DNA from: Streptomyces sp. NBC_00539 | Lineage (GTDB): Bacteria; Actinomycetota; Actinomycetes; Streptomycetales; Streptomycetaceae | Length of the DNA stretch: 64,000 nucleotides | Direction of reading: 5' to 3' | NCBI RefSeq assembly: GCF_036346105.1 | Contig: NZ_CP107811.1 | Location: forward strand, 5,723,501 to 5,787,500 | Shown: piece after piece, positions 15,838 to 39,585 of the stretch | How the letters are laid out: the number at the start of each line of letters is the position of its first letter | Position numbering within the stretch: the first letter of the stretch is position 1 | Translations under genes and position numbers: made by a program | Notes under the pieces: generated by a model | Database searches by the model: none | What the model was told of the DNA's origin: nothing | What the model saw: only the letters and a program-made list of their open reading frames with translations

Positions 15838-15916
15838 GTCATGGAGTAACGGACCTACTTCATGACCTCGCGCGGCGACTACCTGAGGTGTGGGGACGGC
15901 ATGTCCTTCTACCTCA
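15838..15916. promoter_or_regulatory. Two inverted repeats ahead of the DJ-1/ThDP cluster
   Basis: GTCATGGAGTA (15838-15848) and TACTTCATGAC (15856-15866) form an inverted repeat with one mismatch around a 7-base spacer. Next to it, TGAGGT (15884-15889) pairs with ACCTCA (15911-15916), with inner GGAC/GTCC. Both lie in the 277-bp gap between the divergent UBP zinc-finger gene and the first gene of the 16-39.6 kb cluster, where operators would be expected. No regulator gene is adjacent. Confidence 0.45.
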
Positions 15917-16004
15917 CGAAGTCGCATACGGGCGCTTTGACGCAGGCCCCGCACAGAAGCAGGGTGGGGGACGCCAACACAACAGGCGGCGCCTGGAGGA
16001 ATCT

Positions 16005-16829
16005 GTGAGCAGAAAGATTCTGGTCATTGTCTCCGAACACGGTTACTGGGCCGAAGAACTGATCGGGCCCGTATCGCAGTTCGACGAGCGGGGCTACGAA
16101 GTCGTATTCGCCACGCCGACCGGGAAGCGCGCCCACGCACTTCCGCCGAGCCTCGACGCCGACTACATCGACCCCCCGCTGGGCCGTTCGGTGACCACCG
16201 AGGAGAACGCCCGGCTGGGCCGCGAGTTCGAGCAGTCGAGCCGGCTCGACTCACCGCTCGACATCGAGGCGTGGGCGCCCGAACGCCCGTACACCAGCGA
16301 CAAGGACTACCTGCCCAAGCTGGAGCAGTACCACCGCGATCTCGACAAGCTCCAGGAGGACATCGCCTCCTTCGACGCGGTCCTCATCGTCGGCGGCAGC
16401 GGCCCCATCGTCGACCTCGCCAACAACGAGCGGGTCCACGCCCTCATCCTCGCCTTCAAGAACGCCGGCAAGGTCGTGGCGGCCGAGTGCTACGGGGTGG
16501 CCTGCCTGGCCTTCGCCCGCGACTGGGGCGACCGCAAGAGCATCATCTGGGGCAAGCACGTCACCGGCCACTGCAAGGAATACGACTACAAGGACGGAAC
16601 CGGATTCCTCGGTACCGACTTCAACATGGGACCGCCGCCGTACCCGCTGGAGTACATCCTGCGCGACGCCACCGGACCGCGCGGCGCGTACCACGGGAAT
16701 TTCGGCCACCCCCTGTCGGTGATCGTCGACTTCCCCTTCGTCACCGGACGTTCGACCCCCGATTCCTATCTGACGGGGCGCAAGATCGTGGAAGTCCTGG
16801 AGGACGGGCTCACCCGGTACGGATGGTAG
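16005..16829 (+). CDS. DJ-1/PfpI family protein (Hsp31/glyoxalase III-like)
   Basis: A 274-residue class I glutamine-amidotransferase-like protein. The nucleophile elbow is AAECYGVACLA with Cys162, and the acidic partner lies in WAEEL (E17/E18). The long insert between residues 45 and 110 is typical of the larger Hsp31-like members, which act as glutathione-independent glyoxalases, deglycases or chaperones. The start is GTG 16005 with TGGAGGA four bases upstream. It is the first gene of a long co-directional cluster and one of three DJ-1 proteins in it. The substrate is unknown; a reactive carbonyl is the likeliest guess. Confidence 0.85.
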   Translation: MSRKILVIVSEHGYWAEELIGPVSQFDERGYEVVFATPTGKRAHALPPSLDADYIDPPLGRSVTTEENARLGREFEQSSRLDSPLDIEAWAPERPYTSDKDYLPKLEQYHRDLDKLQEDIASFDAVLIVGGSGPIVDLANNERVHALILAFKNAGKVVAAECYGVACLAFARDWGDRKSIIWGKHVTGHCKEYDYKDGTGFLGTDFNMGPPPYPLEYILRDATGPRGAYHGNFGHPLSVIVDFPFVTGRSTPDSYLTGRKIVEVLEDGLTRYGW

Positions 16830-16860
16830 TCCGGTAACTCCTGGGAAAGAGGGGGAATTC

Positions 16861-18498
16861 ATGGAAGCCACTCCCGGACGGGAAAGGCTGATCGAGCAGT
16901 TCAAGGCCGACGGCCTGAATGTGATGTTCGGAAATCCGGGGACGGTCGAACAGGGATTCCTCGACGCGGTCGACGCGGCAGCGGACTTCCGGTACGTCCT
17001 CGCCCTCCAGGAGACCGTCGCCGCCGGCATCGCCGACGGCTACGCCCGGGCCACCGGCGGCGCGGCCCTGCTCCAACTGCACTCCGGCGTGGGCCTGGGC
17101 AACGGCATCGGCATGCTCTACCAGTCGTTGCGCGGCCACACCCCGCTCGTCGTGGTCGCCGGTGACGCCGGGGTCCGCTACGACGCCATGGACGCCCAGA
17201 TGGCGTCAGACCTGGTGGCGATGGCCAAACCGGTGACGAAGTACGCGACCCGGGTCACCGACCCGCGCTCCGTACTGCGCACCATCCGGCGCGCGGTCAA
17301 GATCGCCCTCACCCCGCCGCGGGGACCGGTGTTCGTCGCGCTGCCTATGGACGTGCTGGACGAGCTGAACTCCGAGCCCGTACTGCCCGCCACCGTGCCG
17401 CTCACGGACACCTCGCCCTCACCCGCCTCGGTGGGCCGGGCGGCCGAGCTGCTCGCCGCCGCCGCACGCCCGGTCGTGCTGATCGGTGACGGGGTGGCGC
17501 TCTCCGGGGCGCAGGCCGAACTCGCACGGGTCGCCGAGATGCTGGGCGCCGACGTGTACGAGGTCGACTCCTCCGAGGTGAACATCGCGGCGTCGCACCC
17601 GCTGCGCCGCGGCCAGACGGGCCACATGTTCGGCCCGCACAGCAAGGAGCTGATCGCCGACGCGGACGGGGTGCTGATCGTCGGCACCTACGTCTTCCCC
17701 GAGGTGTTCCCCGAACTGGAGAGCCCCTTCCGGGCCGGCGCGAAGGTCGTGCACATCGACCTCAACGCCTACGAGATCGCCAAGAACCACCCGGTGGACC
17801 TGGGCCTGGCCGCCGACCCCAAGCAGGCGCTGCGCGCACTGGCGGGCGTACTGGAGCACCGGCTCACCACCGCGCAGCGCACGGCCGCGCGCGCCCGGCT
17901 GGACGCCCGCTCCCGGGAGCGGGCCGCGCAGGCGGACGCACCGGACACCGACGGCACGCCGATCGCGGTCTTCCTGCGGACCCTGGCCGAGCGGACGGGC
18001 GGGGACCTCATCGTCTTCGACGAGGCGCTGACCACCTCGCCGCTGGTCACCAAGTACCTGCCGGCGGAGCGGCCGGGCGACTACCACCTCACCCGGGGCG
18101 GTTCGCTCGGGGTGGGCTTCCCGGGGGCGGTCGGGGCCAAGCTGGCCCGCCCGGACCGGCTCGTCGTCGGCTTCGCGGGCGACGGCGGGTCGATGTACAC
18201 CTACCAGGCGCTGTGGACCGCGGTCCGGCACGGCATCAACGCCAAGTTCGTGGTCTGCAACAACCGCAAGTACCGGCTGCTGGACGACAACATCGCCCAG
18301 TACTGGCGGGAACGGGACATCCCCGAGCACGGCTTCCCGGGATCCTTCGACCTCTCCCACCCCGAGATCGACTTCGCCGGGCTGGCACGTGCCCTCGGCG
18401 CGGACGGGACGCGGGTGGAGAAGCCGGACGAGGCGGTCGCGGCCGTGGGCCGGATGCTGGCCCACCCCGGCCCGTACCTCGTGGACATCCAGGTCTGA
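16861..18498 (+). CDS. Thiamine-diphosphate-dependent enzyme (decarboxylase/acetolactate synthase-like)
   Basis: A 545-residue three-domain ThDP enzyme. The N-terminal PYR domain has FGNPGTVEQGF and the catalytic Glu51 in LALQE; the central Rossmann-like domain begins near 185; the PP domain carries the ThDP/Mg motif GDGGSMYTYQALWTAV near 440, ending in VCNNRKYR. Such enzymes decarboxylate 2-oxo acids or join and split hydroxyketones. It resembles benzoylformate decarboxylase-type enzymes more than true acetolactate synthase, and no regulatory subunit is nearby. ATG 16861 follows AGAGGGGGAATTC. The substrate cannot be read from sequence. Confidence 0.85.
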   Translation: MEATPGRERLIEQFKADGLNVMFGNPGTVEQGFLDAVDAAADFRYVLALQETVAAGIADGYARATGGAALLQLHSGVGLGNGIGMLYQSLRGHTPLVVVAGDAGVRYDAMDAQMASDLVAMAKPVTKYATRVTDPRSVLRTIRRAVKIALTPPRGPVFVALPMDVLDELNSEPVLPATVPLTDTSPSPASVGRAAELLAAAARPVVLIGDGVALSGAQAELARVAEMLGADVYEVDSSEVNIAASHPLRRGQTGHMFGPHSKELIADADGVLIVGTYVFPEVFPELESPFRAGAKVVHIDLNAYEIAKNHPVDLGLAADPKQALRALAGVLEHRLTTAQRTAARARLDARSRERAAQADAPDTDGTPIAVFLRTLAERTGGDLIVFDEALTTSPLVTKYLPAERPGDYHLTRGGSLGVGFPGAVGAKLARPDRLVVGFAGDGGSMYTYQALWTAVRHGINAKFVVCNNRKYRLLDDNIAQYWRERDIPEHGFPGSFDLSHPEIDFAGLARALGADGTRVEKPDEAVAAVGRMLAHPGPYLVDIQV

Positions 18499-18630
18499 TC
18501 CCCGCGCCACTGATCCCCGCGCCACGAGCACCGCACAGCGATCCCCGCACGGCGCATCGAGATCCCTGCACAGCGAGCCCCGCACAGCGCACCTGACATC
18601 ACCGCCCCTGACATCACCGCACCGGTACGG
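18496..18630. repeat. Degenerate 15-bp-period tandem repeat
   Basis: TGATCCCCGCGCCAC is duplicated exactly at 18496-18510 and 18511-18525 (the first copy includes the upstream gene's stop codon). Further diverged 15-bp units follow, including CCTGACATCACCGC at 18592-18605 and again at 18607-18620. This fills almost all of the only sizeable gap (147 bp) in the first half of the cluster. It looks like a young minisatellite; a regulatory effect is possible. Confidence 0.7.
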
Positions 18631-18645
18631 ACAGGAGGAGACCGC

Positions 18646-19077
18646 ATGCCCGTCGAGCGGCTGACCGAGGACGCGATCCGCAGTTTCGCCGAGAACTGGT
18701 ACGTGGCCCTGGACCAGCACCTTCCGCTGGATCAGGTGCTCGCCATGATCACCGAGGACCTGGAGTTCAAGGTCCCCGAGGACACCTTCCTCGGACACGA
18801 GGGCTTCGGCCGCTGGTACGCCGCCGTGACCTCCCGCTTCTTCGACGAGGTCCACACCGTCACCAAGGTCGAGCCCGTCATCGAGGGCGACCGGGCCATC
18901 GTCCGGGTCCTCGTGAACTGGCAGGCCAAGATCTGGGACCCGCCCGCTCCGCGCAGCCAGTGGCTCGGCTTCGACGCCGACCAGACCTGGGTCGTCGTGG
19001 CAGGCCAGGACGGACCGCTGATCAAGCAGTACACCGTCAACGAACTGGCGCCCATGCCGGGTTCCGGCTCCCTCTGA
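18646..19077 (+). CDS. NTF2/SnoaL-like fold protein
   Basis: A 143-residue protein of the cone-shaped NTF2-like superfamily (ENWYVALDQHLPLDQVLAMI, EFKVPEDTFLGHEGFGRWY, IVRVLVNWQAKIW). Members are cyclases, isomerases, hydratases or binding proteins. ATG 18646 follows GGAGGAGACCGC. It is the first of three consecutive NTF2-like genes, all different in sequence, which is unusual and suggests consecutive pocket chemistries on one intermediate. No catalytic residue can be assigned safely. Confidence 0.75.
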   Translation: MPVERLTEDAIRSFAENWYVALDQHLPLDQVLAMITEDLEFKVPEDTFLGHEGFGRWYAAVTSRFFDEVHTVTKVEPVIEGDRAIVRVLVNWQAKIWDPPAPRSQWLGFDADQTWVVVAGQDGPLIKQYTVNELAPMPGSGSL

Positions 19078-19106
19078 CCGGCTGCGAAGACGTAGGAGGA
19101 GCGGCG

Positions 19107-19562
19107 ATGACCGAAGTGACACGGGAGCGGGTGCGAGCGGCCTACCAGGCGCTCGGCTCCGGCGACCGGGCGCGCATCCTGGAGTACTACTCCGAGGACC
19201 TGCGCTGGCTGGTGCCGGGCAACCATCCGCTCGCCGGCTGGTACGAGAGCCTGGACGCCTTCCTGGAGTTGATGGGGCAGACCCACAAGCTCACGGGCGG
19301 CACCTTCCGGATGGACATCCAGGCGGTTCTCGTCGGTGACGACTGCAGCGCCGACGTGTGCCGCAACGTCGCCGTGCGCGACGGCGCGGACGGGGCGAGC
19401 GGGTCCCCGTACGAGCGGATGGACTACCCGGTCTTCCACTTCATGCGGTGGCGGGACGGGCGGATCGTCGAGGGCCGCGACGGCCTCTTCGGCGACACGG
19501 CGACCGCCTTCAGCCAGTTCTGGGCGCCCTTCACGCCGGACGGCACCCGCAGGGACCGATAG
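19107..19562 (+). CDS. NTF2/SnoaL-like fold protein
   Basis: A 151-residue protein with the classic SnoaL start (VRAAYQALGSGDRARILEYY), LRWLVPGNHPLAGWY, and a closing FHFMRWRDGRIVEGRDGLF strand pair. The start ATG 19107 has a perfect AGGAGGA site. It lies 29 bp after the previous NTF2 gene and 13 bp before the next. By family it is a small cytoplasmic enzyme or binding protein; its substrate is not known. Confidence 0.8.
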   Translation: MTEVTRERVRAAYQALGSGDRARILEYYSEDLRWLVPGNHPLAGWYESLDAFLELMGQTHKLTGGTFRMDIQAVLVGDDCSADVCRNVAVRDGADGASGSPYERMDYPVFHFMRWRDGRIVEGRDGLFGDTATAFSQFWAPFTPDGTRRDR

Positions 19563-19575
19563 GGGGATGAGCGCG

Positions 19576-19956
19576 ATGAGCGCGTTGGACGCACGAGAGA
19601 TTCTGCGGAAGTACTACGAGTACGCCAATGCCGGGGACTGGGACCGCTGGTGCGACCTGTTCGCCGACGACCAGGTCATGGACGAGCAGCTGGCCGGACA
19701 CATCGAGGGCCTGGAGGTCCTGCGCTCGATGATGAAGGGCATGGGGACGATGTACCGGGTCTTCCGGAACGAGCCCGTGCACTTCCTCGTCGACGGGGAG
19801 AAGGCCGCGGCCGTCTCCCACCTCACCGCCGTCAGCGCCTCCGGCGAGGCCATCGAGGCCGAGGTCATGAACTACTTCCGGATCGTGGACGGAAAGATCG
19901 TCTACATGGCGAACTACCACGACACCGTGCCCTTCCAGGTGCTCGGCCAGGGCTGA
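19576..19956 (+). CDS. NTF2/SnoaL-like fold protein
   Basis: A 126-residue NTF2-like protein (ILRKYYEYANAGDWDRWCDL, DEQLAGHIEGLEVLRSMM, MNYFRIVDGKIVYMANYHD). ATG 19576 is preferred because GGGGG lies nine bases upstream; ATG 19567, only four bases after the previous stop, would add three residues. It is the third NTF2 protein in a row and precedes the GMC oxidoreductase by 9-12 bp. The function is inferred only as part of the cluster's pathway. Confidence 0.75.
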   Translation: MSALDAREILRKYYEYANAGDWDRWCDLFADDQVMDEQLAGHIEGLEVLRSMMKGMGTMYRVFRNEPVHFLVDGEKAAAVSHLTAVSASGEAIEAEVMNYFRIVDGKIVYMANYHDTVPFQVLGQG

Positions 19957-19965
19957 GGGGCGGGC

Positions 19966-21573
19966 GTGATGGCGAGAGATGAGTACGACTACATCATCGT
20001 GGGATCCGGTACCGCCGGCAGTGTCCTGGCGAACCGGCTCTCCGAGGACCCGGACGTCTCCGTCCTCGTCCTGGAGGCCGGCGGCGACCGCATCCCGCCC
20101 GAGGTGGACGACCCGTCCTCCTGGTACAAGCTGCTGGGCGGCCCCGTCGACTGGGGCTACACCAGCGTCCCGCAGCCCGGACTCGACGGCCGCCGTACGT
20201 ACGAACCGCGCGGCAAGGCCCCGGGCGGCAGCAGCAACCTCTACATCATGATGCACATCCGGGGCCACGCCTCGGACTTCGACAACTGGGCCTACCAGGG
20301 GGCGGCGGGCTGGTCCTACGAGGACGTACTGCCCTACTTCGCCCTCCTGGAGGGCCAGGAGGACGCCACGGCGCCCACCACCGGCACCCGCGGCCCGCAG
20401 CGCATCACCAACGCCGGGCAGCACGGCCCCAACCCCGTCTCCCGCGCCTTCATCGACGCGGCGGTCGAGCTCGGCCACCAGGAGATCGCCGACTTCAACA
20501 CGGACGGCCCCCGGCGCGGCCTCTTCGGCACCGGCTGGCACCACATCGACGTCGCGGACGGCCGCCGCCAGGGCGCCCTCGCCGCCTACCTGGAGCCGGC
20601 CCTGGAGCGGGCCAACCTGACCCTGCGCACCAGCGCGCAGAGCACCCGGCTCCTCTTCGACGGGCAGACCTGCACGGGCGTGGAGTACGTCCGGCTCGCG
20701 CCGCCCGCCCCGATCGCGGGCCGCGTGGTGGGCGACGGGCACAGCGCCGCCGCCGAGCCGGGGACGCACACCGTGCGGGCCCGCCGGGAGGTGATCGTGG
20801 CCGCCGGGGCGATCGAGTCCCCGAAGCTGCTGCTGCTCTCCGGCATCGGACACCCCGAGCAGCTGCGCGAACACGGCATCGCGGTCACCGCGGCCCTGCC
20901 CGGGGTCGGCGAGAACTTCCACAACCACGTGCTGACCGGGCTGATGGCGGAGGTCACCCAGGAACTGCCGCCGCCGGCGCAGAACCTGTCGGAGAGCGCT
21001 CTGTTCCTGTCCTCCCGGCCCGGCCTGCCCGCGCCCGACCTGCAGATCGCCTTCGTGCACGTGCCGTTCGACGTGATCGTCGGCCAGGACCACCCCCACA
21101 CGGTGAGCATCCTGCCCGGGGTCGTCCGGCCCGTCTCGCGCGGCTGGATCAGGCTCGCGAGCACCGACCCGCTGGCCCACCCGCTGATCAACCCGAACTA
21201 CCTGGGCGACCGGTGGGACCTGGAGCGGATGGTGCAGGGCGTCAAACTCGCCCGGGAGCTCTTCGCGACCTCCGCGTTCTCCCCCTGGTACAAGCAGGAG
21301 CTCCAGCCCGGGCCGGGCTACGTGAGTGACGAGGACCTGCGGACCTTCGTGAAGCAGAAGTCGGAGAGCTACCACCACCAGGCGGGCTCCTGCCGCATGG
21401 GCATCGACGACCTCAGCGTCGTCGACCCGGAGCTGCGGGTGCACGGCGTACGGAACCTGCGCGTCGTCGACGCCAGCGTGATGCCCGCGGTCCCGTCGGG
21501 CAACTGCCACACCGCCATCGCGATGATCGCCGAGCGCGCGGCGGACTTCCTGAAGGGAGTGTCCCGTGCCTGA
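19966..21573 (+). CDS. GMC-family FAD-dependent oxidoreductase
   Basis: A 535-residue flavoenzyme related to choline dehydrogenase and glucose oxidase. It shows the dinucleotide-binding fold DYIIVGSGTAGSVLANRL, the GMC signature around GKAPGGSSNLYIMMHIRG (residues 82-100), EVIVAAGAIESPKLLLLSGI, and a C-terminal catalytic region with SYHHQAGSCRMG and PSGNCHTAIAMIAERAAD (the H/N or H/H pair). Enzymes of this class oxidise alcohols or sugars to aldehydes, ketones or lactones. It starts at GTG 19966 or ATG 19969, both served by GAGGGG. The stop overlaps the next DJ-1 gene. Confidence 0.9.
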   Translation: MMARDEYDYIIVGSGTAGSVLANRLSEDPDVSVLVLEAGGDRIPPEVDDPSSWYKLLGGPVDWGYTSVPQPGLDGRRTYEPRGKAPGGSSNLYIMMHIRGHASDFDNWAYQGAAGWSYEDVLPYFALLEGQEDATAPTTGTRGPQRITNAGQHGPNPVSRAFIDAAVELGHQEIADFNTDGPRRGLFGTGWHHIDVADGRRQGALAAYLEPALERANLTLRTSAQSTRLLFDGQTCTGVEYVRLAPPAPIAGRVVGDGHSAAAEPGTHTVRARREVIVAAGAIESPKLLLLSGIGHPEQLREHGIAVTAALPGVGENFHNHVLTGLMAEVTQELPPPAQNLSESALFLSSRPGLPAPDLQIAFVHVPFDVIVGQDHPHTVSILPGVVRPVSRGWIRLASTDPLAHPLINPNYLGDRWDLERMVQGVKLARELFATSAFSPWYKQELQPGPGYVSDEDLRTFVKQKSESYHHQAGSCRMGIDDLSVVDPELRVHGVRNLRVVDASVMPAVPSGNCHTAIAMIAERAADFLKGVSRA

Positions 21574-22177
21574 CGCCGTACTGCGCGAGGGCGCCCTGAC
21601 CGGGACCCGGATCGCGGTCCTGGTCGAGAGCGACTTCTACGAGCCCGAGATCTTCTACTACAGCCGCCGGTTCGCCGAGGAGGGCGCCGAGGTCGACTTC
21701 CTGACCCGGCTGTGGGGCAACGGCTCCATCACCTTCACGGGCCACGAGTACCGGGCGCCGTTCACCGCCGACAAGTCCCTGGAGGGGCTGGACGACGACG
21801 CGCTGCGCCGGTACGCGGCGATCATCGTCCCCTCGGGCATGGTGGCCGACCGGCTGCGCTACACCGAGGACGTGGACGTCCTCGCACCCGCCACGGAGCT
21901 GCTGCGCCGGGCCTTCGAGGAGCCGACGGTCCTCAAGGGGATCATCTGCCACGGCATGTGGCTGGCCGCCTCGATCCCCGACAAGATCCGCGGTCGCAAG
22001 GTGGTCTGCCACAACAACCTCATCGGCGACGTCCGCAACATGGGCGCCGAGTACGTCAACGAGGACGTGGTGGTCGACGGTGACCTGGTCACCGGACGCA
22101 CCGGCGCCCACCACCACCTCTTCGCCCGCCGGATCATCGAGCTGATCGCGGCGGGGCGGGGACGGGGGAGCGCCTGA
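21566..22177 (+). CDS. DJ-1/PfpI family protein
   Basis: A 203-residue compact PfpI-type protein. The core begins RIAVLVESDFYEPEIFYY with the acidic residues E26/E28, and the nucleophile elbow is IICHGMW with Cys128 next to His129. This Cys-His arrangement fits the protease/deglycase-type PfpI group rather than the larger Hsp31 type at 16005. GTG 21566 has AAGGGAG upstream and overlaps the GMC gene by 8 bp; its own stop overlaps the next start. It acts probably on a product of the GMC or ThDP enzymes; the substrate is unknown. Confidence 0.85.
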   Translation: MPDAVLREGALTGTRIAVLVESDFYEPEIFYYSRRFAEEGAEVDFLTRLWGNGSITFTGHEYRAPFTADKSLEGLDDDALRRYAAIIVPSGMVADRLRYTEDVDVLAPATELLRRAFEEPTVLKGIICHGMWLAASIPDKIRGRKVVCHNNLIGDVRNMGAEYVNEDVVVDGDLVTGRTGAHHHLFARRIIELIAAGRGRGSA

Positions 22178-22632
22178 TGGCCGGGACGGTCTGGTCCCAC
22201 GTGGGCCTGAACTGCACGGACCAGAAGACCACCGAGGAGTTCTACACCCGCTACTTCGGTTTCGCCCGGGCCAGGGTGGTCGACCTCGGCGAGTCGCAGA
22301 TCGTGTTCCTGCGCAAGGGGGACGCGTACCTGGAGCTCTTCGCGGCCGGCACCGACCCGGCCCGCCCCGCGCAGGGCAACCTCCCGGCGCCGGCCGCGGG
22401 CGACGGGCCGCAGGCCCCGGGCCTGATGCGCCACCTGGCCTTCCAGACCGAGAGCGTGGACGCGTTCCTGGCGGAGTTGGGCGAAGCGGCGGAAGTGACC
22501 CTGGGGCCGCTGGACTTCGACGACTTCATCTGCGGGTGGCGGACCGTATGGGTCCGCGATCCCGACGGGGTGATCGTCGAGGTCAGCCAGGGATACGAGG
22601 ACGACAGCTCTCACGACAAGGACGGTGTGTGA
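22177..22632 (+). CDS. VOC (glyoxalase/dioxygenase fold) protein
   Basis: A 151-residue vicinal-oxygen-chelate protein made of two babab modules: WSHVGLNCTDQKTTEEFYTR, FGFARARVVDLGES, AYLELF, MRHLAFQTESVDAFLAEL, and VWVRDPDGVIVEVSQGY. The likely metal ligands are H8, E111-region acid residues and the final E of VIVEV. The family includes glyoxalase I, epimerases and resistance proteins. It starts at ATG 22177, sharing a base with the previous stop. With DJ-1 neighbours this supports carbonyl handling. Confidence 0.85.
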   Translation: MAGTVWSHVGLNCTDQKTTEEFYTRYFGFARARVVDLGESQIVFLRKGDAYLELFAAGTDPARPAQGNLPAPAAGDGPQAPGLMRHLAFQTESVDAFLAELGEAAEVTLGPLDFDDFICGWRTVWVRDPDGVIVEVSQGYEDDSSHDKDGV

Positions 22633-22635
22633 AAC

Positions 22636-24456: not shown

Positions 24457-24496
24457 TGCCCAACGGGGGGCGCCCCACCATGAGGGGAAGAAGACA

Positions 24497-24841
24497 ATGA
24501 CTCTTCACGTGAAAGAACGCCGGAACAAGGGCGGCACGGTAGTCGTCGCCACCGGCGAGATCAACAGCGAGACCTCGGGGCAGCTGCTCCAGGCCCTGCT
24601 GCCGCTCGTCCGCGAAGGCCGGTCGCTGCGCATCGACCTCACCGCCGTCACCTACGTCTCCAGCGCCGGCCTGCGCACCCTGCTCGTCGTCTACCGCGAG
24701 GCCCAGCACGCCGGTGTCGCCGTCACCCTGTACGGGGTGAGCGAGGAAGTCCGGTTCGTCATGTCGGCCACCGGCTTCCTGGACTTCTTCTCCGCCGGCG
24801 AGGCCGAGGCGGCCAACGCGAAGGCCCGGGCCGCGCTATGA
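24497..24841 (+). CDS. STAS-domain anti-anti-sigma-factor-like protein
   Basis: A 114-residue STAS protein of the RsbV/SpoIIAA type: VVVATGEINSETSGQLLQAL, then IDLTAVTYVSSAGLRTLLVV, in which a Ser of SSAGLR (about residue 57-58) is the expected phosphorylation site of an RsbW-type kinase. ATG 24497 has GAGGGGAAGAAG upstream. The last codons overlap the start of glgX (ATGA), so this regulator and a metabolic enzyme are translationally coupled, which is unusual. The probable partners are the kinase at 27319 and phosphatase at 27765. Confidence 0.85.
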   Translation: MTLHVKERRNKGGTVVVATGEINSETSGQLLQALLPLVREGRSLRIDLTAVTYVSSAGLRTLLVVYREAQHAGVAVTLYGVSEEVRFVMSATGFLDFFSAGEAEAANAKARAAL

Positions 24842-27313: not shown

Positions 27314-27318
27314 CGGCC

Positions 27319-29790: not shown

Positions 29791-29828
29791 GTTGAATCGG
29801 CAGCGATTCCAGAACAAGGAGATCAGTC

Positions 29829-32095: not shown

Positions 32096-32710
32096 ATGCG
32101 GACAGGCATCATCGGCACCGGCCGGATCGGCACGGTCCTCGCACGGATCCTCGTCGCCGCCGGCCACGAGGTCGTCCTCGCAGGCGCCCGCGGGCCGCAG
32201 GCCCTGGCCCCGCTGGTGGCCGAACTCGGCGCCGCGGCTTCGGCGGCGCACCCCGCCGAAGCCGCGGGCCGGGCCGACCTGGTGGTGCTGATGGTGCCGT
32301 TCGACCACGTACGGGGGCTGCTGCCGCCGCACGTGGTGCAGGACAAGGTCCTCGTGGACGCGACCAACGCGTTCGGCGGGCCCGGTACCCCCGCCGATCT
32401 CGGCGGACGCGGCTCCAGCGACCTGGTCGCCGAGTGGTACCCCGGCGCCCGGGTCGTGAAATCCCTGAACACCATGCATTTCGAGACCCTCGCCGTGGCC
32501 GGTACCGCAGGGGGCGAACGACTGGCCCATTTCACGGCGGGCGACGACGGGAAATCGAAGGAAATCGTCGCGGGAATCATTTCGGATCTCGGATTCGCCC
32601 CCGTCGACACCGGCCCGCTGCACTCCGGAGGAATTCTCCAACAGCCCGGCGGACCCCTCTTCAACCGGCCGCTCACGGAAGCGCAGGCGCTCGCATGGAT
32701 CTCTCACTGA
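32096..32710 (+). CDS. F420/NADP-oxidoreductase-like Rossmann protein
   Basis: A 204-residue protein with an N-terminal dinucleotide-binding fold ([18 protein letters not shown]) and the domain organisation of coenzyme F420-dependent NADP oxidoreductase-like proteins ([35 protein letters not shown]). Streptomyces makes F420, so hydride transfer with F420 or NAD(P) is possible. It begins 9 bp after the aldehyde dehydrogenase and overlaps the iron-sulphur subunit by 16 bp. The substrate is unknown. Confidence 0.75.
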
Positions 32711-33216
32711 ACGTGAACGGAAGACCCGAGCAGTTCTCGGCCCCGCCGAACGAACTGCTCGTGGAACGGCTGCGCGACGGCCTGGGACTGACCGGGACCA
32801 AAGTCGGCTGCGACACCGGCCAGTGCGGCACGTGCGTCGTCCGCCTCGACGGCAGGTCCGTCAAGAGCTGCCTGGTCCTCACCGCAGCGGCCGCCGGCGC
32901 CCGGGTGACCACCATCGAGGGCGTCACCACCCGAGGTGGCGAGCTCACCGGTCTCCAGGAGGCCCTGCGCGAAGAGCACGGCACCCAGTGCGGCTTCTGC
33001 ACCCCCGGCATGGTCATGGCCCTCGGGGAACTCGTCGACAACACCGCCGACCGCGAGGCCCCCACCGAGCCGGAGATCCGTGAGTGGCTCACCGGCAACC
33101 TGTGCCGGTGCACCGGCTACCACAGCGTCGTACGCGGAGTGCAGCGCGCCTGCTCCGCCGCCCGCGCCGGGGAACCGGCAGCCGAGGCCGCCGCCGCGCC
33201 CGGACAGGAGGTGTGA
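32695..33216 (+). CDS. [2Fe-2S] subunit of a molybdenum hydroxylase (CoxS/XdhA type)
   Basis: A 173-residue electron-transfer subunit with two iron-sulphur clusters. The plant-ferredoxin-type site uses C39, C44, C47 and C59 ([13 protein letters not shown]...KSC); the second, helical-domain site uses C99, C102, C137 and C139 (QCGFCTPG and CRCTGY). The C-terminal 20 residues are Ala/Glu-rich. ATG 32695 lies within the end of the preceding gene. It forms a heterotrimer with the molybdopterin subunit at 33221 and the FAD subunit at 35623. Confidence 0.95.
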
Positions 33217-33220: not shown

Positions 33221-35626
33221 GTGACCGCTGTGACGGGGGAGAGCGCTCTCCAGGGCAACGGAGTGCTGGGACAGCCGCTGGACATCCGCGAGGATCCGCA
33301 GCTGCTGCGCGGCGAAGCCACGTACGTCGCGGACATCGACCTGCCGGACACCGCGCACATGGCCATCCTCGGCAGTCCGGTGGCCCACGCACGGATCGTG
33401 TCCATCGAGACCAAGGCCGCGCAGGAGCTGCCCGGCGTACTGAAAGTGGCCACCGCGGCCGACTTCACCGACGTCATGCCGTTGCCCTGCATCTGGATAC
33501 CCGGCGGGGTCGAGAGCCACTTCCCGCCCCACCCCTACGGGCTTCCCGGCGCCCGCCCGGTCCTGACCGGTGACCGCGTCCGGCACGTCGGCGACCCGAT
33601 CGCCGTGGTCGTCGCCGAAACCCCGCGCCAGGCCGCCGCGGCCCTGGCCGCCATCGCGGTCGAGTACGAACCGCTGCCCGTGGTCACCCGCGCCGACGAG
33701 GCCCTGGCCGAGGGCGCGCCCCAGCTGCACGAGGCCGTCCCCGGCAACCTGAACGCGTACTGGACCTGCGGCGACAAGGACCGCACCGACGCGGCCATCG
33801 CCGAGGCCGAGGTCACCGTCGAACTCGACCTCGTCAACCAGCGCACCATCAACAGCCCCATCGAGCCCCGCGGGGCCGTCGGCGACTTCGACGCCACCAC
33901 CGGCGAGTACACCCTCTACGCCTCCACCCAGGGCCCGCACAACCACCGCTTCCTGCTCGCCGCGCTGGTCCTCGGCATCCCCTTCAACAAGCTGCGCGTG
34001 ATCGCGCCGACCGTGGGCGGGAGCTTCGGCACCAAGGGCTACCTCTACCCCGACATGGCGCTGGTCCTGCTGCTCTCCAAGGCGCTCGGCCGCCCCGTGA
34101 AGTGGGTGGACACCCGCACCGGCCTGATGAACTCCACCGTCCAGGGCCGCGACCACCGCCAGCACGTCACCCTCGCCGGCACCCGCGACGGCCGCATCAC
34201 CGCCGTGCGCGCCACCAGCCACGCCAACCTGGGCGCGTACCCCTCCACCATCGGCCCCGGCGTCGCCACCGCCCTGATGGGCCGCTCCATCAGCGGCATG
34301 TACGACATCGACGCCGCCTTCTGCGAGGTCTACGCCGCCTTCACCAACACCGTCCCGCTCGGCGCCCAGCGCGGCAGCGGGCGCGCCGAGGCCGCCTTCC
34401 TGATGGAGCGCCTCGTCGACCGGTACGCCTTCGAGATCGGCATGGACCCGGCGGCCGTGCGGCGCAAGAACCTGGTGCCGAAGGAGAAGTTCCCCTACGA
34501 CAACGGGCTCGGCTGGACCTACGACTCCGGTGACTACCAGCTGAACTTCGACAAGGCGATCGAGCTGTCGGGGTACGCCGACATGCCCGCCCGCAAGGCG
34601 CAGGCCCGCGCCCGCGGCAAGCGCCTCGGCGTCGGCATCGCCTCCTACGTCGCCATCTGCGGGGTCGGCCCCTCCACGAGGATGTCCAAGGAGGGCATGC
34701 TCGGCGGCACCTGGGAGAGCGCGAACATCCGCGTCCACCCCACCGGCGAGGTCACCGTGACCGTCGGCTCCGCCTCCACCGGCCAGAGCCACGCCACCGT
34801 GTTCGCGCAGGTGGCCGCCGACGAACTCGGCATCGACCCGGCGCAGGTCCAGGTCCTGGAGGGGGACACGCAAAAGGCCCCGTACGGGCAGGGCACCTAC
34901 GGCTCGCGCTCCTACAGCATGGCCGCGCCGGCCGTCGCCCTCACCGCCCGCAAACTCAAGGCGAAGCTGGTCAAGGCGGGAGCCGTCTTCCTCGGGGTCC
35001 CCGAGGACAAGGTCGTCTACGCGGGCGGCGGCGTCCACGAAGAGGGCAACGAGGAGAACGCGAAGACCTTCGCCGAGCTGGCGATGGCCATGTGGTACGG
35101 CTGGGGGCTGCCCCCCGAGATCGAACCCGCCCTCGACGAGACCACCCACTTCGACCCGCCGGACTTCAACTACCCCTTCGGGACGCACGTCGCGGTGGTC
35201 GAGATCGACGAACTGACCGGCGAGACCGAGGTGGTGGCCTACACCGCCGTGGACGACGCCGGCAACATCGGCAACCCGAAGATCGTCCACGGTCAGATCG
35301 AGGGCAGCATCGTCCACGGCCTGGGCCAGGCCCTCATGGAGGCCGCCGAGTACGACGAGGACGGGCTGCTCATCAGCTCCGACCTCAGCCACTACGCCCT
35401 GCCGCGCGCCGCCGACGTGCCCTTCTTCGCCCTGGACAAGACGACCACGCCGAGCCCGCACAACCCGCTCGGCGCCAAGGGGGCCGGCGAGATCGCCACC
35501 GTGCCCCCGGCCGCCGCCGTCGTCAACGCCGTCGTGGACGCCCTCTCCGACCTGGGCGTCCGGCACATCGACATGCCCCTCACCCCCGAGAAGGTCTGGC
35601 GCCGCCTGAGAGGGGAAGCCCAGTGA
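33221..35626 (+). CDS. Molybdopterin-binding catalytic subunit of a xanthine dehydrogenase/CO dehydrogenase-family enzyme
   Basis: An 801-residue catalytic subunit. It has the small aldehyde-oxidase domain (RGEATYVADIDLPDTAHMAI), the cofactor-binding loop VGGSFGTKGY near residue 266, a QRGSGRAEAAF segment where true CO dehydrogenases carry the AYRCSFR copper loop, and the catalytic Glu757 in KGAGEIATVPP. It is therefore a hydroxylase of aldehydes or N-heterocycles, not CO dehydrogenase. GTG 33221 has a weak site; AGGAGG lies 12 bases upstream. Its stop overlaps the FAD subunit start (GTGA). Confidence 0.93.
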   Translation: MTAVTGESALQGNGVLGQPLDIREDPQLLRGEATYVADIDLPDTAHMAILGSPVAHARIVSIETKAAQELPGVLKVATAADFTDVMPLPCIWIPGGVESHFPPHPYGLPGARPVLTGDRVRHVGDPIAVVVAETPRQAAAALAAIAVEYEPLPVVTRADEALAEGAPQLHEAVPGNLNAYWTCGDKDRTDAAIAEAEVTVELDLVNQRTINSPIEPRGAVGDFDATTGEYTLYASTQGPHNHRFLLAALVLGIPFNKLRVIAPTVGGSFGTKGYLYPDMALVLLLSKALGRPVKWVDTRTGLMNSTVQGRDHRQHVTLAGTRDGRITAVRATSHANLGAYPSTIGPGVATALMGRSISGMYDIDAAFCEVYAAFTNTVPLGAQRGSGRAEAAFLMERLVDRYAFEIGMDPAAVRRKNLVPKEKFPYDNGLGWTYDSGDYQLNFDKAIELSGYADMPARKAQARARGKRLGVGIASYVAICGVGPSTRMSKEGMLGGTWESANIRVHPTGEVTVTVGSASTGQSHATVFAQVAADELGIDPAQVQVLEGDTQKAPYGQGTYGSRSYSMAAPAVALTARKLKAKLVKAGAVFLGVPEDKVVYAGGGVHEEGNEENAKTFAELAMAMWYGWGLPPEIEPALDETTHFDPPDFNYPFGTHVAVVEIDELTGETEVVAYTAVDDAGNIGNPKIVHGQIEGSIVHGLGQALMEAAEYDEDGLLISSDLSHYALPRAADVPFFALDKTTTPSPHNPLGAKGAGEIATVPPAAAVVNAVVDALSDLGVRHIDMPLTPEKVWRRLRGEAQ

Positions 35627-36447
35627 TCCTCACCGAGTTCGACTACGTACGGCCCGTCGGCCTCGAAGAGGCGCTGGCCCTCCTCGCCGGCACCCCCGGT
35701 GCGCGGGCCCTGGCCGGCGGCCAGAGCCTGCTGCCCGACCTGCGCACCGGCGCCGCCCGGGCCCGCCTGCTGGTCGACGTACGGCACCTGGAGGAACTCC
35801 GCGGCGTCGAGACCGCCCCGGACGGGACGCTGCGGATCGGGGCGCTGACCACGCTCGCCGAACTCGCGGCCCATCCGATGGTGCTGGCGCAGGCCCCGGA
35901 GATCGCCGCCGCGGCCCGGGCCAACGGCGACCCCCAGGTCCGCAACCTCGGCACCACCGGGGGGAACCTGGCGGCCACCGGCCGGGCCACCGACCTGCCG
36001 GTCGCGGCCATCGCCGCGGGCGCAGAGGCGGAACTGGCCGGGCGCCGGGGACGCTCCACGGTGACGGCCGAGGAACTCGCCGCCTCCGGAGTGCCGGCGG
36101 ACACCGTGATCACGGCCCTGCTGGTGCCGCCCGGGGGACCGGCGGGCGCCTTCGAGAAGAGCGCCGACCGGGCCACCCGCTACCCGCTGTGCGCGAGCGC
36201 CGTACGCCTCACCGAAGACGGTCCCCGCATCGCGGTCACCGGAGCCACCGCCCGCGCCCTGCGCCTGCGCGGGGTCGAGGACCGGCTGGGCGGGGGCCCG
36301 TACACCACGGACAACGTGCTCGCGGCCTTCCGCGCCGAGCCCCGGGAGCTGTTCGTCCCGGGCCGCGGCACCTCGGCCGAGTACCTCGGCCACCTCGCGG
36401 GGGTCCTGACCGCCCGCGCACTGGCGAGGGCCCAGGCGCACGCCTGA
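35623..36447 (+). CDS. FAD-binding subunit of a molybdenum hydroxylase (CoxM type)
   Basis: A 274-residue flavoprotein that passes electrons from the iron-sulphur clusters to an acceptor. It shows FDYVRPVGLEEALALLA, the FAD-binding LAGGQSLLPDLRTG near residue 36, GALTTLAELAAHP, and VRNLGTTGGNLA near 107, all standard for CoxM/XdhB subunits, and a C-terminal CO-dehydrogenase-flavoprotein domain. It begins at GTG 35623 overlapping the previous gene. The order small-large-medium differs from the classical coxMSL order. Confidence 0.93.
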   Translation: MILTEFDYVRPVGLEEALALLAGTPGARALAGGQSLLPDLRTGAARARLLVDVRHLEELRGVETAPDGTLRIGALTTLAELAAHPMVLAQAPEIAAAARANGDPQVRNLGTTGGNLAATGRATDLPVAAIAAGAEAELAGRRGRSTVTAEELAASGVPADTVITALLVPPGGPAGAFEKSADRATRYPLCASAVRLTEDGPRIAVTGATARALRLRGVEDRLGGGPYTTDNVLAAFRAEPRELFVPGRGTSAEYLGHLAGVLTARALARAQAHA

Positions 36448-36477
36448 TCACCGCCCACCACGGGGGAGTTGACAAGA

Positions 36478-37737
36478 GTGGCCGAACCGACCAAGACGAC
36501 CACGGGGGACATCGTGCACCCGGCCGGCCGGCGGGCCGGTGCGCCCAGAGGCTCCGGCTTCTGGGTGGTGGGCGCGGTCCTCGTCCTGCTCATGCTCTCC
36601 TCCTCCGTGCCCTCCGCCCTCTACGTGCTCTACCAGCAGAGATGGGGGCTGTCGGCGGGCACCATCACGGTGGTCTTCGCCCTGTACGCCGTCACCGTCC
36701 TGGCAGGGCTGCTGCTGTTCGGGTCGCTGTCCGACACCCTCGGACGGCGGCCCGTGCTGGGCGCCGCACTGGTCCTCGCGATCGTGTCCATGGGCCTGTT
36801 CGCCGGGGCCCAGGGGCTCGGACTGCTCCTCGCCGCCCGCGCCGTACAGGGGCTCGCGGTCGGCCTGGCCACCGGGGCGATGGGCGCGGCCCTGCTCGAG
36901 CTGACCCCGCGCTCCAAACCCGCACTCGGCGCCCAGGTCAACAGTGCGGGCCCCACCGTCGGCATCGGGCTCGGCGGCCTGGGCGCCGGATTCCTCGTCC
37001 AGTACGGGCCCGCACCGACCGTACTGAGCTACGCCCTGCTCGTCGGGGCCTTCGCGCTCACCCTGGTCGGGGTGGTCCGGATGGGCGAGAGCGCACCAGG
37101 GCTGCAGGGCGGCCGTTTCCGGGTCGTCCCGCGCCGCATCCGGATACCGCCGGGCACGGGCGGCCGGTTCGCCGTCCTGGTGCTCACGATCGTCGCCGTC
37201 TGGTCGGTCGGAGGCTTCTACCTCTCGCTCGGCCCGCACCTGGCCCTGTCCCTGCTCCGCAGCACCAACTACCTGGTCGGCGGCGCCACCGTCGCCCTGC
37301 TCGCGGGCGCCGCGACCGGCGCACAGCTGCTGCTCGGCCGCACCGAGGCGCTGCGCACGGCGGTCATCGGGCTGCTGGGGCTGCTGGCCGGCCTGGCGCT
37401 GGTGCTGCTGGCGCTCGGGCTGGGCTCCGCGCCCGTCTTCCTCATCGCCACGGCCGTGCTGGGCAGCGGCTGGGGCGCCGCCTTCCTGGGCTCCTTCCGC
37501 GCCCTCAGCACGCTCGCCGAGCCCGAACACCGCGGCGAACTCACCGCCGCCGTCTACGTGTTCGCCTACCTCGCCATGAGCGTCCCGTCGGTGCTCGCCG
37601 GAATGCTGACCAACATCCACGGCCTGCACCGCACCTCGGTCGGCTTCATGGCCGTCGTCGCCGGGGTGTGCGCGCTGGCCCTGATCGTCACCTTGCGGCT
37701 GTCCGCCCGTACGCGGGCAGAGGGGAGTACGGCATGA
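36478..37737 (+). CDS. Major facilitator superfamily transporter
   Basis: An MFS protein of about 420 residues with 12 predicted membrane helices. Between helices 2 and 3 it has the MFS motif GSLSDTLGRRPVLG. The start is taken as GTG 36478 (GGGGAG about nine bases upstream); TTG 36469 would add three residues. It is probably an exporter or importer for the substrate or product of the adjoining oxidising enzymes. Its stop overlaps the histidine kinase start (ATGA), so transporter and sensor are co-translated. Confidence 0.88.
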   Translation: MAEPTKTTTGDIVHPAGRRAGAPRGSGFWVVGAVLVLLMLSSSVPSALYVLYQQRWGLSAGTITVVFALYAVTVLAGLLLFGSLSDTLGRRPVLGAALVLAIVSMGLFAGAQGLGLLLAARAVQGLAVGLATGAMGAALLELTPRSKPALGAQVNSAGPTVGIGLGGLGAGFLVQYGPAPTVLSYALLVGAFALTLVGVVRMGESAPGLQGGRFRVVPRRIRIPPGTGGRFAVLVLTIVAVWSVGGFYLSLGPHLALSLLRSTNYLVGGATVALLAGAATGAQLLLGRTEALRTAVIGLLGLLAGLALVLLALGLGSAPVFLIATAVLGSGWGAAFLGSFRALSTLAEPEHRGELTAAVYVFAYLAMSVPSVLAGMLTNIHGLHRTSVGFMAVVAGVCALALIVTLRLSARTRAEGSTA

Positions 37738-39212
37738 GCGACCCGGAGTTGCGGTCCGCCCTGCGCGAGCTGGAGATCTTCGCCGGTCTCACCGAGGAGC
37801 AGCTGGACTGGCTGGTCTCGGTCACCGAGCCCCGGGTGCTGGCCGACGGCGACGTGCTCTTCCGCGACGGGGACGAGGCCACCTGCTTCCACGTGCTGCT
37901 CGCGGGAGGCCTCGTCGTCACCAAGGTCATCGACGGCCGGGAGGAAGTGCTCACCCGCCACTCCACCGAGGAGGAGAGCGCCGCGGCCGAGGAGCACGAC
38001 GGCAAGCCCTCCGCCGCGCACCGTTTCACCGGGGAGCTGCCGCTGCTGACGGACGGCTCCTACGTGGCCACCGCGTCCGCGTCCGGTCCCGCGACCACCG
38101 TCGTCGGCTACCCCAAGCCGGTGTTCTTCGAGATGCTGTCCCGCTGCCACGGCGTGGCCGCCGTGCTGCTGCCCGTACTTGCCTGGCGGATCAAGTCCTC
38201 CGAGGTGCAGGCCCGCAAACGGGCCACCGTGGAGGCACTGGGCACCCTCGCGGCGGGCCTCGCGCACGAGCTGAACAACCCGGCGGCCGCGGTGGCGCGC
38301 GCGGCGCAGGAGCTCGCCCCCGCCCTGGAGCGGCTGACCCGCACCGCGCACGCCTGGGGCGCGGCCGCCTCGGGGGCCGAACGCTCCCTGCTGGACCGGC
38401 TCACCGACGAGCTGGACAAACTGCCGCCGCCGCAGACCTCCGACCCGCTGGCGCAGGCGGACGCCGAGGAGGAGATCACCGACTGGGCCGAGGAGGCGGG
38501 CACCGAGCGGCCGGGGCTGCTCGGCTCGGGCGTCTCGGACCTCGGCCTGGAGCTGGGCTGGCTGCTGGAGCGGCTGGAGGGGATCGGGGAGCCGGCCCTG
38601 CCGGCCGCCCTGGACCACCTGGCGGCGCTGCTGGAGATCCGCTCCCTGGCCGCCGAGCTGCGGGCCGCGGGCCCGCGCATCTCCCAGCTCGTCGCCGCCA
38701 CCCGCGATTACGCCAATCTCGACCGCGCCCCCGAACAGCGCTTCCCGGTGACGGAAGGACTGGAGAACACGCTGGTCGTGCTCCGGTCGAAGCTCTCCGG
38801 CATCACCGTGGTGCGTGAGTACGAACCCGGCCTGCCCGAACTGACGGGCTATCCAGGCGAGTTGAACCAGGTGTGGACCAACCTCGTCGACAACGCGGCC
38901 GAGGCCATGGAAGGGGCCGGCACCCTCACCCTGCGCGCCCGGGCGGAGGGCGTGTGCATGGTCGTGGAGGTCGTCGACACCGGCCGGGGCATCCCCGAGG
39001 ACGTCCTGCCGCGGATCTTCGAGCCCTTCTACACCACCAAGGACGTGGGGAAGGGGACGGGGCTGGGGCTGCACCTCAGCTACCGGATCGTGACCCAGCG
39101 CCACCACGGGTCGCTCGCGGCCCGCTCCCGTCCGGGGGAGACCCGGATGGTCGTCCGGCTGCCGCTCGCCACACCGCCGGCGGCGACCGCCGCCGGTTCC
39201 CGCACCAGTTGA
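37734..39212 (+). CDS. Soluble histidine kinase with N-terminal cyclic-nucleotide-binding-like domain
   Basis: A 492-residue cytoplasmic kinase without membrane segments. Residues 10-145 form a cNMP-binding/Crp-like beta roll (LEIFAGLTEEQLDWLVSVTE, GDVLFRDGDEAT, TGELPLLTDGSYVATA). Then comes HisKA with H178 in GLAHELNNPAAAVARA, an unusually long helical insert (about 200-310), and HATPase_c with TNLVDNAAEAM, VDTGRGIPEDV, FEPFYTTKDVGKGTGLGLHL. No response regulator gene is adjacent. It may sense a small ligand connected with the co-translated transporter; whether it binds cAMP cannot be judged from the motif. Confidence 0.88.
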   Translation: MSDPELRSALRELEIFAGLTEEQLDWLVSVTEPRVLADGDVLFRDGDEATCFHVLLAGGLVVTKVIDGREEVLTRHSTEEESAAAEEHDGKPSAAHRFTGELPLLTDGSYVATASASGPATTVVGYPKPVFFEMLSRCHGVAAVLLPVLAWRIKSSEVQARKRATVEALGTLAAGLAHELNNPAAAVARAAQELAPALERLTRTAHAWGAAASGAERSLLDRLTDELDKLPPPQTSDPLAQADAEEEITDWAEEAGTERPGLLGSGVSDLGLELGWLLERLEGIGEPALPAALDHLAALLEIRSLAAELRAAGPRISQLVAATRDYANLDRAPEQRFPVTEGLENTLVVLRSKLSGITVVREYEPGLPELTGYPGELNQVWTNLVDNAAEAMEGAGTLTLRARAEGVCMVVEVVDTGRGIPEDVLPRIFEPFYTTKDVGKGTGLGLHLSYRIVTQRHHGSLAARSRPGETRMVVRLPLATPPAATAAGSRTS

Positions 39213-39243
39213 GCCACCACCAGCCCAGAGAGTGGAGACGCAC

Positions 39244-39585
39244 ATGGCCACGTACGACATCTCCAAGCTGCACCCGGTCTTCGTCCGCCAGATGGAGGCG
39301 CTCGCCGCCCTCGACATCGAGGCGGTCATGAAGAACTACACGGACGACGCCGTGCTCCTGCGCTTCGAAGGGGCCTCGGTGGGCATCGAGGCCGTCCGCG
39401 AGACGTTCACCGGCTACCTCTCGGTCAAGCCCACGCTGGTCGAACTCCAGGAGTACATCGAGACCGAGGACACGATCTTCTACCGCGCGATCATGAACCT
39501 GAACGGTCAGCCGGAGCACGCGTTCGGGACACTTGTGGTCCGCGATGGCCGGATCTGGCGTCAGACCGCCGGGTTCGGCAGCTGA
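39244..39585 (+). CDS. NTF2/SnoaL-like fold protein
   Basis: A 113-residue protein (VFVRQMEALAALDIEAVMKN, YTDDAVLLRFEGASVGIEAV, HAFGTLVVRDGRIWRQTAGF), the fourth NTF2-like member of the region. ATG 39244 has GGAG seven bases upstream; the in-frame TG start at 39232 is weaker. It lies 31 bp after the kinase gene and appears to close the cluster. It is probably a small binding protein or isomerase. Confidence 0.75.
   Translation: MATYDISKLHPVFVRQMEALAALDIEAVMKNYTDDAVLLRFEGASVGIEAVRETFTGYLSVKPTLVELQEYIETEDTIFYRAIMNLNGQPEHAFGTLVVRDGRIWRQTAGFGS

Follow-up and report, generated by a model that had tools for sequence, protein, structure and literature searches.

Do the genes of a long co-directional run in a Streptomyces chromosome belong together, and if so, what kind of system do they form? 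The run lies in a 64,000-nucleotide stretch of the 7.5-Mb genome of Streptomyces sp. NBC_00539 (contig NZ_CP107811.1, positions 5,723,501 to 5,787,500 of the forward strand), hereafter the window; all positions below are counted from its first nucleotide. It comprises 24 forward-strand genes at 16005-39585, in which alpha-glucan enzymes, a partner-switching module and carbonyl-type enzymes are combined. Eight of the 23 junctions overlap, 21 are 50 bp or shorter, and the largest gap is 147 bp. The run was read as part of an enlarged, horizontally distributed cluster of the cyanobacterial icfG type, with a probability of about 0.7. This reading draws on observations of which genes make up the core and how they are ordered, on their orthology to those of cyanobacteria, on intact kinase and acceptor motifs, on the correlated evolution of the parts and on a large insertion at one chromosomal site.

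A first-pass annotation, made from the sequence alone, had described about 24 co-directional genes with tight overlaps, and the gene coordinates bore this out. Each gene family that it listed was present by Pfam; one gene, for an NAD(P)-binding protein of the F420_oxidored family (32096-32710, forward strand, Pfam), had been overlooked. It had placed the limits at 15838 and 39585. The right end was correct, the run begins at 16005, and the limits were drawn too narrow for the inserted block described below.

Core genes and the icfG cluster of Synechocystis

In Synechocystis salina (locus L109), genes for DJ-1B, an AGE-like protein, a STAS protein, GlgX, a second STAS protein, a PP2C phosphatase and a kinase are consecutive. 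The window has DJ-1, AGE-like, STAS, GlgX and STAS in the same order at 21566-27313, a single VOC gene separating DJ-1B from the AGE-like gene. Searched against the whole Streptomyces genome at E ≤ 0.001, the S. salina kinase matched the window kinase (1.3e-21) and nothing else. Nine matches were obtained with the S. salina STAS1, the best being STAS 1 of the window (5e-19) and the second STAS 2 (1.6e-9). L109 was taken to be the icfG cluster, Synechocystis sp. PCC 6803 itself not being among the loci. Judged by gene order and these matches, the window core (DJ-1/AGE-like/STAS/GlgX/STAS/RsbW-type kinase/PP2C, 21566-29015) is the icfG cluster of Synechocystis (slr1852-slr1862 in PCC 6803).

All core genes are on the forward strand. 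DJ-1B (21566-22177) is of the PfpI type by Pfam, and the S. salina cluster has a DJ-1 gene at the equivalent position. It is followed by the VOC gene (22177-22632; glyoxalase superfamily, Pfam) and by the AGE-like gene (22636-24456), the counterpart of Slr1855. STAS 1 (24497-24841; Pfam) carries a conserved acceptor Ser in the motif VSSAGL and is the counterpart of Slr1856. The debranching enzyme GlgX (24838-26985) scored above the TIGR02100 cut-off, the two catalytic motifs checked were intact, and it is the fourth GlgX of the genome. STAS 2 (27002-27313; Pfam, acceptor Ser in ASAGL) corresponds to Slr1859, and the RsbW-type serine kinase/anti-sigma protein (27319-27783; Pfam HATPase_c_2, N-box and G-box) to Slr1861. 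The kinase gene is adjoined by that of a SpoIIE-type PP2C (27765-29015; Pfam and structure comparison), the counterpart of IcfG. A MinD/ParA-like ATPase (29015-29758; Pfam) with the Walker A motif RGGTGKS comes next. The first Lys that is usual in a deviant Walker A motif is replaced by Arg here; Arg was present in 10 of 12 cluster homologues and Tyr in two from Streptosporangium.

The AGE-like protein and GlgX are 62% identical to those of S. salina, and the acceptor Ser and kinase motifs are conserved between the two clusters. They differ in that the window has PP2C and kinase swapped, and its PP2C has a soluble receiver-like N-terminus, whereas that of S. salina is hydrophobic and probably membrane-bound. 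The window also adds MinD, DJ-1A, a thiamine diphosphate (ThDP) enzyme, SnoaL, GMC and VOC proteins, aldehyde dehydrogenase (ALDH), molybdenum hydroxylase, a response regulator fused to a thioredoxin-reductase-like oxidoreductase (RR-TrxR) and a cNMP-domain kinase, and its copy is a chromosomal insertion in an actinobacterium.

Biochemical work on Synechocystis, as given in the excerpted text of PMC12329169, has Slr1861 phosphorylating Slr1856 and Slr1859, and IcfG dephosphorylating Slr1856. Mutants of the icfG cluster are described there as impaired in low-carbon/glucose growth. The slr1852-1862 operon is called salt-repressed in the available part of PMC8670252, where Slr1855 (as N-acetylglucosamine 2-epimerase), Slr1856, GlgX1 and IcfG are listed. 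No description of an icfG-type cluster outside cyanobacteria was found in the literature searched, which was available in part.

Distribution, conservation and insertion site

The AGE-like protein was used to find further copies. A tblastn search against 72,556 plasmid records gave 20 records, 17 of them with at least 80% coverage, from Streptomyces, Nostoc, Gloeothece, Gloeocapsopsis, Deinococcus, Gemmobacter and Runella. Nine plasmid regions were read, and the AGE-like genes on plasmids of Streptomyces, Deinococcus, Nostoc, Gemmobacter, Runella and Gloeothece had neighbourhoods similar to that in the window. The Deinococcus plasmid matched it nearly gene for gene (DJ-1, ThDP, NTF2-like, GMC, DJ-1, VOC, AGE, STAS, GlgX, STAS, kinase [by tblastn], SpoIIE phosphatase, MinD). 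A profile scan of genomes gave at least 498 AGE relatives, of which the best 80 were kept, so that close relatives are over-represented; the nearest named locus among these 80, by the AGE gene, was that of S. cirratus (98%). Together with the nine plasmid regions, 89 loci were obtained and dereplicated at 85% AGE identity into 40 lineages (17 actinobacterial, 15 cyanobacterial, three of Deinococcota, two of Chloroflexota, and one each of Alphaproteobacteria, Bacteroidota and Chlorobi). Four of the 40 loci were shorter than 12 kb, and absences there carry little meaning.

GlgX was present in the fetched stretches of 38 of the 40 lineages, those outside the count being L052 (a distant amylase match) and L121 (a partial contig). 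DJ-1B was present in 35, STAS1 in 32, STAS2 in 31 (including the fused STAS of L051 and L117), the kinase in 26 and PP2C in 25. DJ-1A and the ThDP enzyme each reached 23 (the latter including a weak match in L051, 25% identity), GMC 15, VOC 14 and MinD 12. ALDH, the molybdenum hydroxylase and DJ-1C were found in just two or three. The order AGE then STAS and GlgX then STAS on the same strand was kept in 27 lineages, and the core order extended over cyanobacteria, Deinococcota, Chloroflexota, Bacteroidota and actinobacteria. The acceptor motif SAG was present in 32/32 STAS1 and 28/31 STAS2 sequences, and the kinase N-box in 25/25. For all 12 genes tested, identities tracked those of AGE (rho 0.41-0.76), and for each gene none of 500 permutations scored as high.

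Chance association of unrelated stress genes is scarcely credible as an explanation of the run. What speaks for it is the right-hand block, from DJ-1C to the fourth SnoaL gene, which occurs in few lineages. Against it are the core order in five phylum-level groups and the correlated identities; the distance from GlgX to the AGE-like gene was also at most 1.5 kb in 37/40 lineages, and since this 7.5-Mb genome holds four GlgX genes, the conservation of the core is far above chance. For the core, the order conserved in 27 of the 40 lineages rules chance out. Even part of the right-hand block recurs: DJ-1C and the molybdenum hydroxylase adjoin the cluster in Sphaerisporangium melleum, and two Streptosporangium have them there in inverted orientation. 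The stretch from DJ-1C to the molybdenum hydroxylase was otherwise kept within the window's own clade; a match to the hydroxylase large subunit at E ≤ 1e-200 was found in one of 60 other relatives searched (the island-bearing genome G407). This stretch is an accessory of a sub-lineage.

The first-pass annotation had taken the run for a unit joining sugar enzymes to a partner-switching module, and the neighbourhood comparison, with its conserved order, correlated identities and intact kinase and phospho-acceptor motifs, agrees with both claims. It had recognised no described cluster, which the icfG identity of the core corrects. The cluster is a real, conserved and mobile unit, of which the icfG-type core was known and the actinobacterial enlargement is new.

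Its occurrence is patchy: the AGE gene was found in 37 of 296 Streptomyces genomes and, in a phylum-wide sample, 5 of 396 genomes had a match at E ≤ 0.001, two of them full matches. In the AGE tree, the 17 actinobacterial rows group together, so a recent transfer from cyanobacteria into the window lineage is not indicated. The Runella and Chloroflexota rows nest among cyanobacteria, and movement across phyla is suggested for these. The Streptomyces plasmid copies adjoin alpha-glucan genes, namely glgE-type genes (L047, L049) and a maltotransferase-domain gene (L052); treS (L049, L052), maltokinase and glgB (L047) and nucleotidyltransferases were also found beside plasmid copies.

The position of the cluster in the chromosome was determined by aligning the window to nine guaB1-adjoining Streptomyces loci from genomes without an AGE match. 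In all nine, sequence corresponding to window 8.9-10.7 kb lies close to guaB1, with no island in between. Four (L134, L135, L137, L139) also show, directly before guaB1, homology to the barstar region that ends at 11615-11942. In the remaining five, guaB1 is preceded by a gap, from approximately 0.3 kb (L133) up to 5 kb (L136), which means that the site can hold other genes. Among eight island-bearing genomes checked on the left, seven pass into the island from 8.9 kb onward in the same way as the window. By these two comparisons, a large inserted block (approximately 12018-42860, or 12.0-42.86 kb) sits at one common chromosomal site, between barstar (11142-12017) and guaB1 (42861-44420). A further variable block was seen to the left of the island, at about 3630-8860; matches of at least 200 bp to it were absent from the nine island-free loci and from the seven island-bearing loci that match both its sides.

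Several observations weigh against reading the block as a mobile cluster of the icfG type. L052 has AGE and STAS and no GlgX, and 6 of the 38 GlgX proteins are of a more distant type. The kinase is absent or beyond the fetched stretch in 14/40 lineages, and PP2C in 15/40. The identity correlation ignores shared ancestry and includes a few poor rows (the L052 amylase as GlgX, fused STAS as STAS2). In G407, the island ends at guaB1 as in the window, and its left flank differs, 25 kb to the left of the island being without a match to that of the window. The search for flanking repeats at the block edges gave one common 14-mer (at 11876 and 42769), which does not exceed chance, since 39 of 287 random pairs scored as high. 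The guanine-cytosine content of the insertion is 0.708, compared with 0.712 and 0.731 in the flanks, and does not mark the block as foreign. A scan of 15300-30100, which detected no promoter-like site and terminator-like sites at the level of shuffled sequence, does not demonstrate a single transcript for that region.

Possible targets of the partner switch

The window has STAS proteins, a kinase and a PP2C with intact motifs, as a partner switch of the SpoIIA/Rsb kind is expected to have. With the SpoIIA and RsbVW modules it shares the STAS antagonist, the Bergerat-fold kinase and the PP2C; it differs from them in that the insertion has no sigma gene, the two STAS genes are interleaved with glgX, and some lineages have a fusion of the STAS protein with the AGE-like enzyme. 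When the predicted PP2C structure was compared with others, only RssB rows spanned its N-terminal part. Compared with Pseudomonas aeruginosa RssB, the receiver-like domain of the window protein shows no acidic phospho-acceptor by eye, Pfam calls no receiver, and the gene is embedded in a cluster of glucan enzymes.

The module may be directed at transcription. The partner switch would then control an alternative sigma factor encoded elsewhere, the enzymes being merely co-transferred, co-transcribed targets; we place this a little short of even odds. In the accessible text of PMC12329169, Slr1861 is reported as an anti-SigC factor antagonised by a STAS protein, and the STAS antagonist Ssr1600 is likewise encoded apart from the kinase. 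Possible partners are at hand, with 48 Sigma70_r2 matches in the Streptomyces genome. The insertion contains none of the 48, however, and a sigma gene was found in the fetched stretch of one of the 40 cluster loci (L052), searched with fragments from 30 of the 48 genes. As sigma genes are not co-located, a moving module would need a new partner in each phylum. The Synechocystis operon as described also has no listed sigma gene, so the absence lowers the probability of a sigma target and does not exclude it.

The arrangement of the STAS genes would fit an output through the enzymes. They are interleaved with the enzyme genes, and in 7 of the 89 loci (Gemmobacter, five cyanobacteria and one Chlorobi metagenome-assembled genome, from three phyla; L045, L051, L117 and L132 are among them) the AGE-like protein carries a STAS domain fused to its C-terminus. 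From such fusions it can be argued that STAS is able to act in cis on the enzyme and, together with the lack of a sigma gene inside the insertion, that the switch may act directly on enzymes. The Gemmobacter and Chlorobi fusions have lost the acceptor Ser, and their loci have no kinase or PP2C match.

The mechanism favoured for the icfG-type cluster would run as follows. PP2C and the RsbW-type kinase would set the phosphorylation of both STAS proteins. Unphosphorylated STAS would bind the kinase, releasing the partner held by it, and/or dock on the AGE-like enzyme and GlgX, and alpha-glucan debranching and the AGE step would thereby be limited to the right carbon or stress state. In its strongest form, the two STAS proteins would serve the AGE-like enzyme and GlgX as subunits under phospho-control, and the cluster would be a portable, phosphorylation-gated alpha-glucan machine that crosses phyla, with the carbonyl enzymes as an interchangeable layer. 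This form is put forward tentatively, at odds well below even. The role of Slr1861 in Synechocystis counts against an output through enzymes, since the output may be transcription; enzyme output and sigma-factor output can both be true.

The AGE-like enzyme itself, 606 aa long, has the AGE fold in its predicted structure: an AGE barrel with extra beta domains at the N- and C-termini (residues about 1-99 and 540-606), which lie outside the barrel and are mostly well predicted. It differs from the AGE superfamily (mannose isomerase, cellobiose and glucose 2-epimerases) in these added domains, in an altered residue at the active-site motif and in its identity of about 13-20% to the AGE entries listed. 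Residues of this motif have a catalytic role in AGE enzymes. The GHNSE of a characterised AGE enzyme reads GHNLK here, a further point against the proposed enzyme step; the His is kept, the acidic residue three positions on is Lys, and H, N and K are invariant in 32/32 sequences.

Accessory genes and a possible second signal pair

The run begins with DJ-1A (16005-16829; ThiJ-like, Pfam PF17124/PF01965, nucleophile motif AECYG) and a ThDP enzyme of the benzoylformate-decarboxylase/acetolactate-synthase type (16861-18498; Pfam and PDB sequence search, below the NCBIfam cut-offs shown). Three SnoaL/NTF2-like genes (18646-19077, 19107-19562 and 19567-19956) and a GMC oxidoreductase gene (19969-21573), all assigned by Pfam, lead to DJ-1B. 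To the right of the MinD-like gene are DJ-1C (29829-30569; HchA-like, Pfam and NCBIfam), ALDH (30602-32086; Pfam and NCBIfam), the F420_oxidored gene, and the small 2Fe-2S (32695-33216), large (33221-35626; both Pfam and NCBIfam) and FAD (35623-36447; Pfam) subunits of a molybdenum hydroxylase. An MFS transporter (36469-37737; Pfam and NCBIfam), a cNMP-domain histidine kinase and the fourth SnoaL/NTF2-like gene (39244-39585; Pfam) complete the run, all on the forward strand.

No NCBIfam cut-off was passed by the ThDP, GMC, ALDH, DJ-1 or molybdenum hydroxylase large-subunit proteins among the models inspected (the best 25 for the ThDP enzyme and ALDH, all for the other proteins), and no substrate is therefore claimed for these enzymes. 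The three DJ-1 proteins scored below the cut-offs of the matched PfpI, HchA and DJ-1 glyoxalase III models; the nucleophilic Cys was present in DJ-1A and DJ-1B by motif check, and DJ-1C reads VCHG. Aerobic CO dehydrogenase was considered for the hydroxylase and rejected: the large subunit scored 642.6 bits against a cut-off of 991, and GAQRGSGR was read by eye where the AYXCSFR loop, the active-site loop of that enzyme, was expected.

The first-pass annotation had proposed one pathway or stress system that makes or removes a reactive sugar-derived carbonyl. Three DJ-1 proteins (A and B with conserved nucleophile motifs), VOC, ALDH, molybdenum hydroxylase, GMC and ThDP enzymes in one run fit this proposal, as does the presence of DJ-1B in 35 of the 40 lineages. 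In the excerpts seen of two expression studies, slr1854 goes up under butanol (PMC3726282) and has ratios of about 1.8-2.1 under ethanol (PMC3564720). The proposal is nevertheless unlikely to hold as stated, given the confinement of ALDH, molybdenum hydroxylase and DJ-1C to two or three lineages, the scarcity of carbonyl genes in the cyanobacterial copies and the description of the operon as salt-repressed. The carbonyl-type layer (DJ-1A, ThDP, GMC, VOC, SnoaL) was found in actinobacteria, Deinococcota, Chloroflexota, Chlorobi, Runella and Gemmobacter. Of the 15 cyanobacterial copies, none had DJ-1A, one a weak ThDP match, one GMC and three VOC, and as these genes are largely missing there, the core function of the cluster probably lies in other genes. 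Actinobacterial versions add DJ-1, ThDP, GMC, SnoaL and VOC, and the window lineage also ALDH and molybdenum hydroxylase. In the icfG-type reading, the DJ-1, ThDP, GMC, VOC, SnoaL, ALDH and molybdenum hydroxylase proteins would act on products of the core; the least secure step of this reading is their proposed handling of reactive carbonyls.

A biosynthetic cluster for a diffusible small molecule is a more improbable account still. SnoaL would serve as a cyclase-like protein, the ThDP enzyme as a carboligase and the MFS protein as an exporter, beside GMC and molybdenum hydroxylase, with the glucan enzymes supplying precursors. SnoaL, GMC and MFS genes are indeed in the run, butyrolactone-type ScbA/ScbR genes are near two plasmid copies, and the patchy distribution in Streptomyces would suit it. 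No scaffold-building enzyme is among the genes counted as recurrent, however, and the cyanobacterial form, as far as the partly available sources describe it, is a small operon tied to carbon control.

A second input may enter the icfG-type cluster through the cNMP-domain histidine kinase (37734-39212, forward strand; Pfam, HELNNP box) and RR-TrxR (13641-15305, reverse strand; Pfam Response_reg and Pyr_redox_2, NCBIfam TRX_reduct below cut-off). The two genes adjoin each other in some other lineages, and in cyanobacterial copies AGE::STAS is followed by RR-TrxR and then by a cNMP-kinase-like gene. RR-TrxR was found near the cluster in 32/89 loci (at least 51% identity), or 7/40 after dereplication, from Streptomyces, Sphaerisporangium, Kibdelosporangium, Saccharothrix, Nonomuraea and cyanobacteria. 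The window protein lacks CxxC, the usual redox motif of thioredoxin reductase; the motif was missing in all nine sequences compared, in which one Cys and the receiver Asp were kept. RR-TrxR may be a phospho-controlled redox enzyme or redox sensor. We infer that the kinase and RR-TrxR signal to each other, which would report the redox or cyclic-nucleotide state.

The inserted block also contains RR-TrxR, to the left of the run and divergent from it, and other genes outside the run. At the left end of the block is an ABM-domain monooxygenase-like gene (12641-13186, reverse strand; Pfam ABM), which adjoins the cluster in the window clade and in Sphaerisporangium melleum (L091). At its right end are a TMEM175-type potassium channel gene (39607-40317; Pfam) and an IS701/DDE_5 transposase-like gene (40390-41670; NCBIfam above cut-off), both on the forward strand. 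The first catalytic Asp is absent from the latter and from 8/8 aligned cluster-linked homologues; the gene is probably a domesticated, inactive transposase. It was found in the fetched stretches of 10 of the 17 actinobacterial lineages.

The icfG cluster has so far been treated, in the literature searched and as far as its available parts show, as a carbon/glucose control operon of cyanobacteria (Synechocystis). Its recurrence in one order in five phylum-level groups, on Streptomyces linear plasmids and inserted in a chromosome allows the AGE-like protein and DJ-1B to be approached by comparison. It also takes the question to non-photosynthetic hosts and makes testable whether the switch drives a sigma factor or the enzymes with which it is interleaved.

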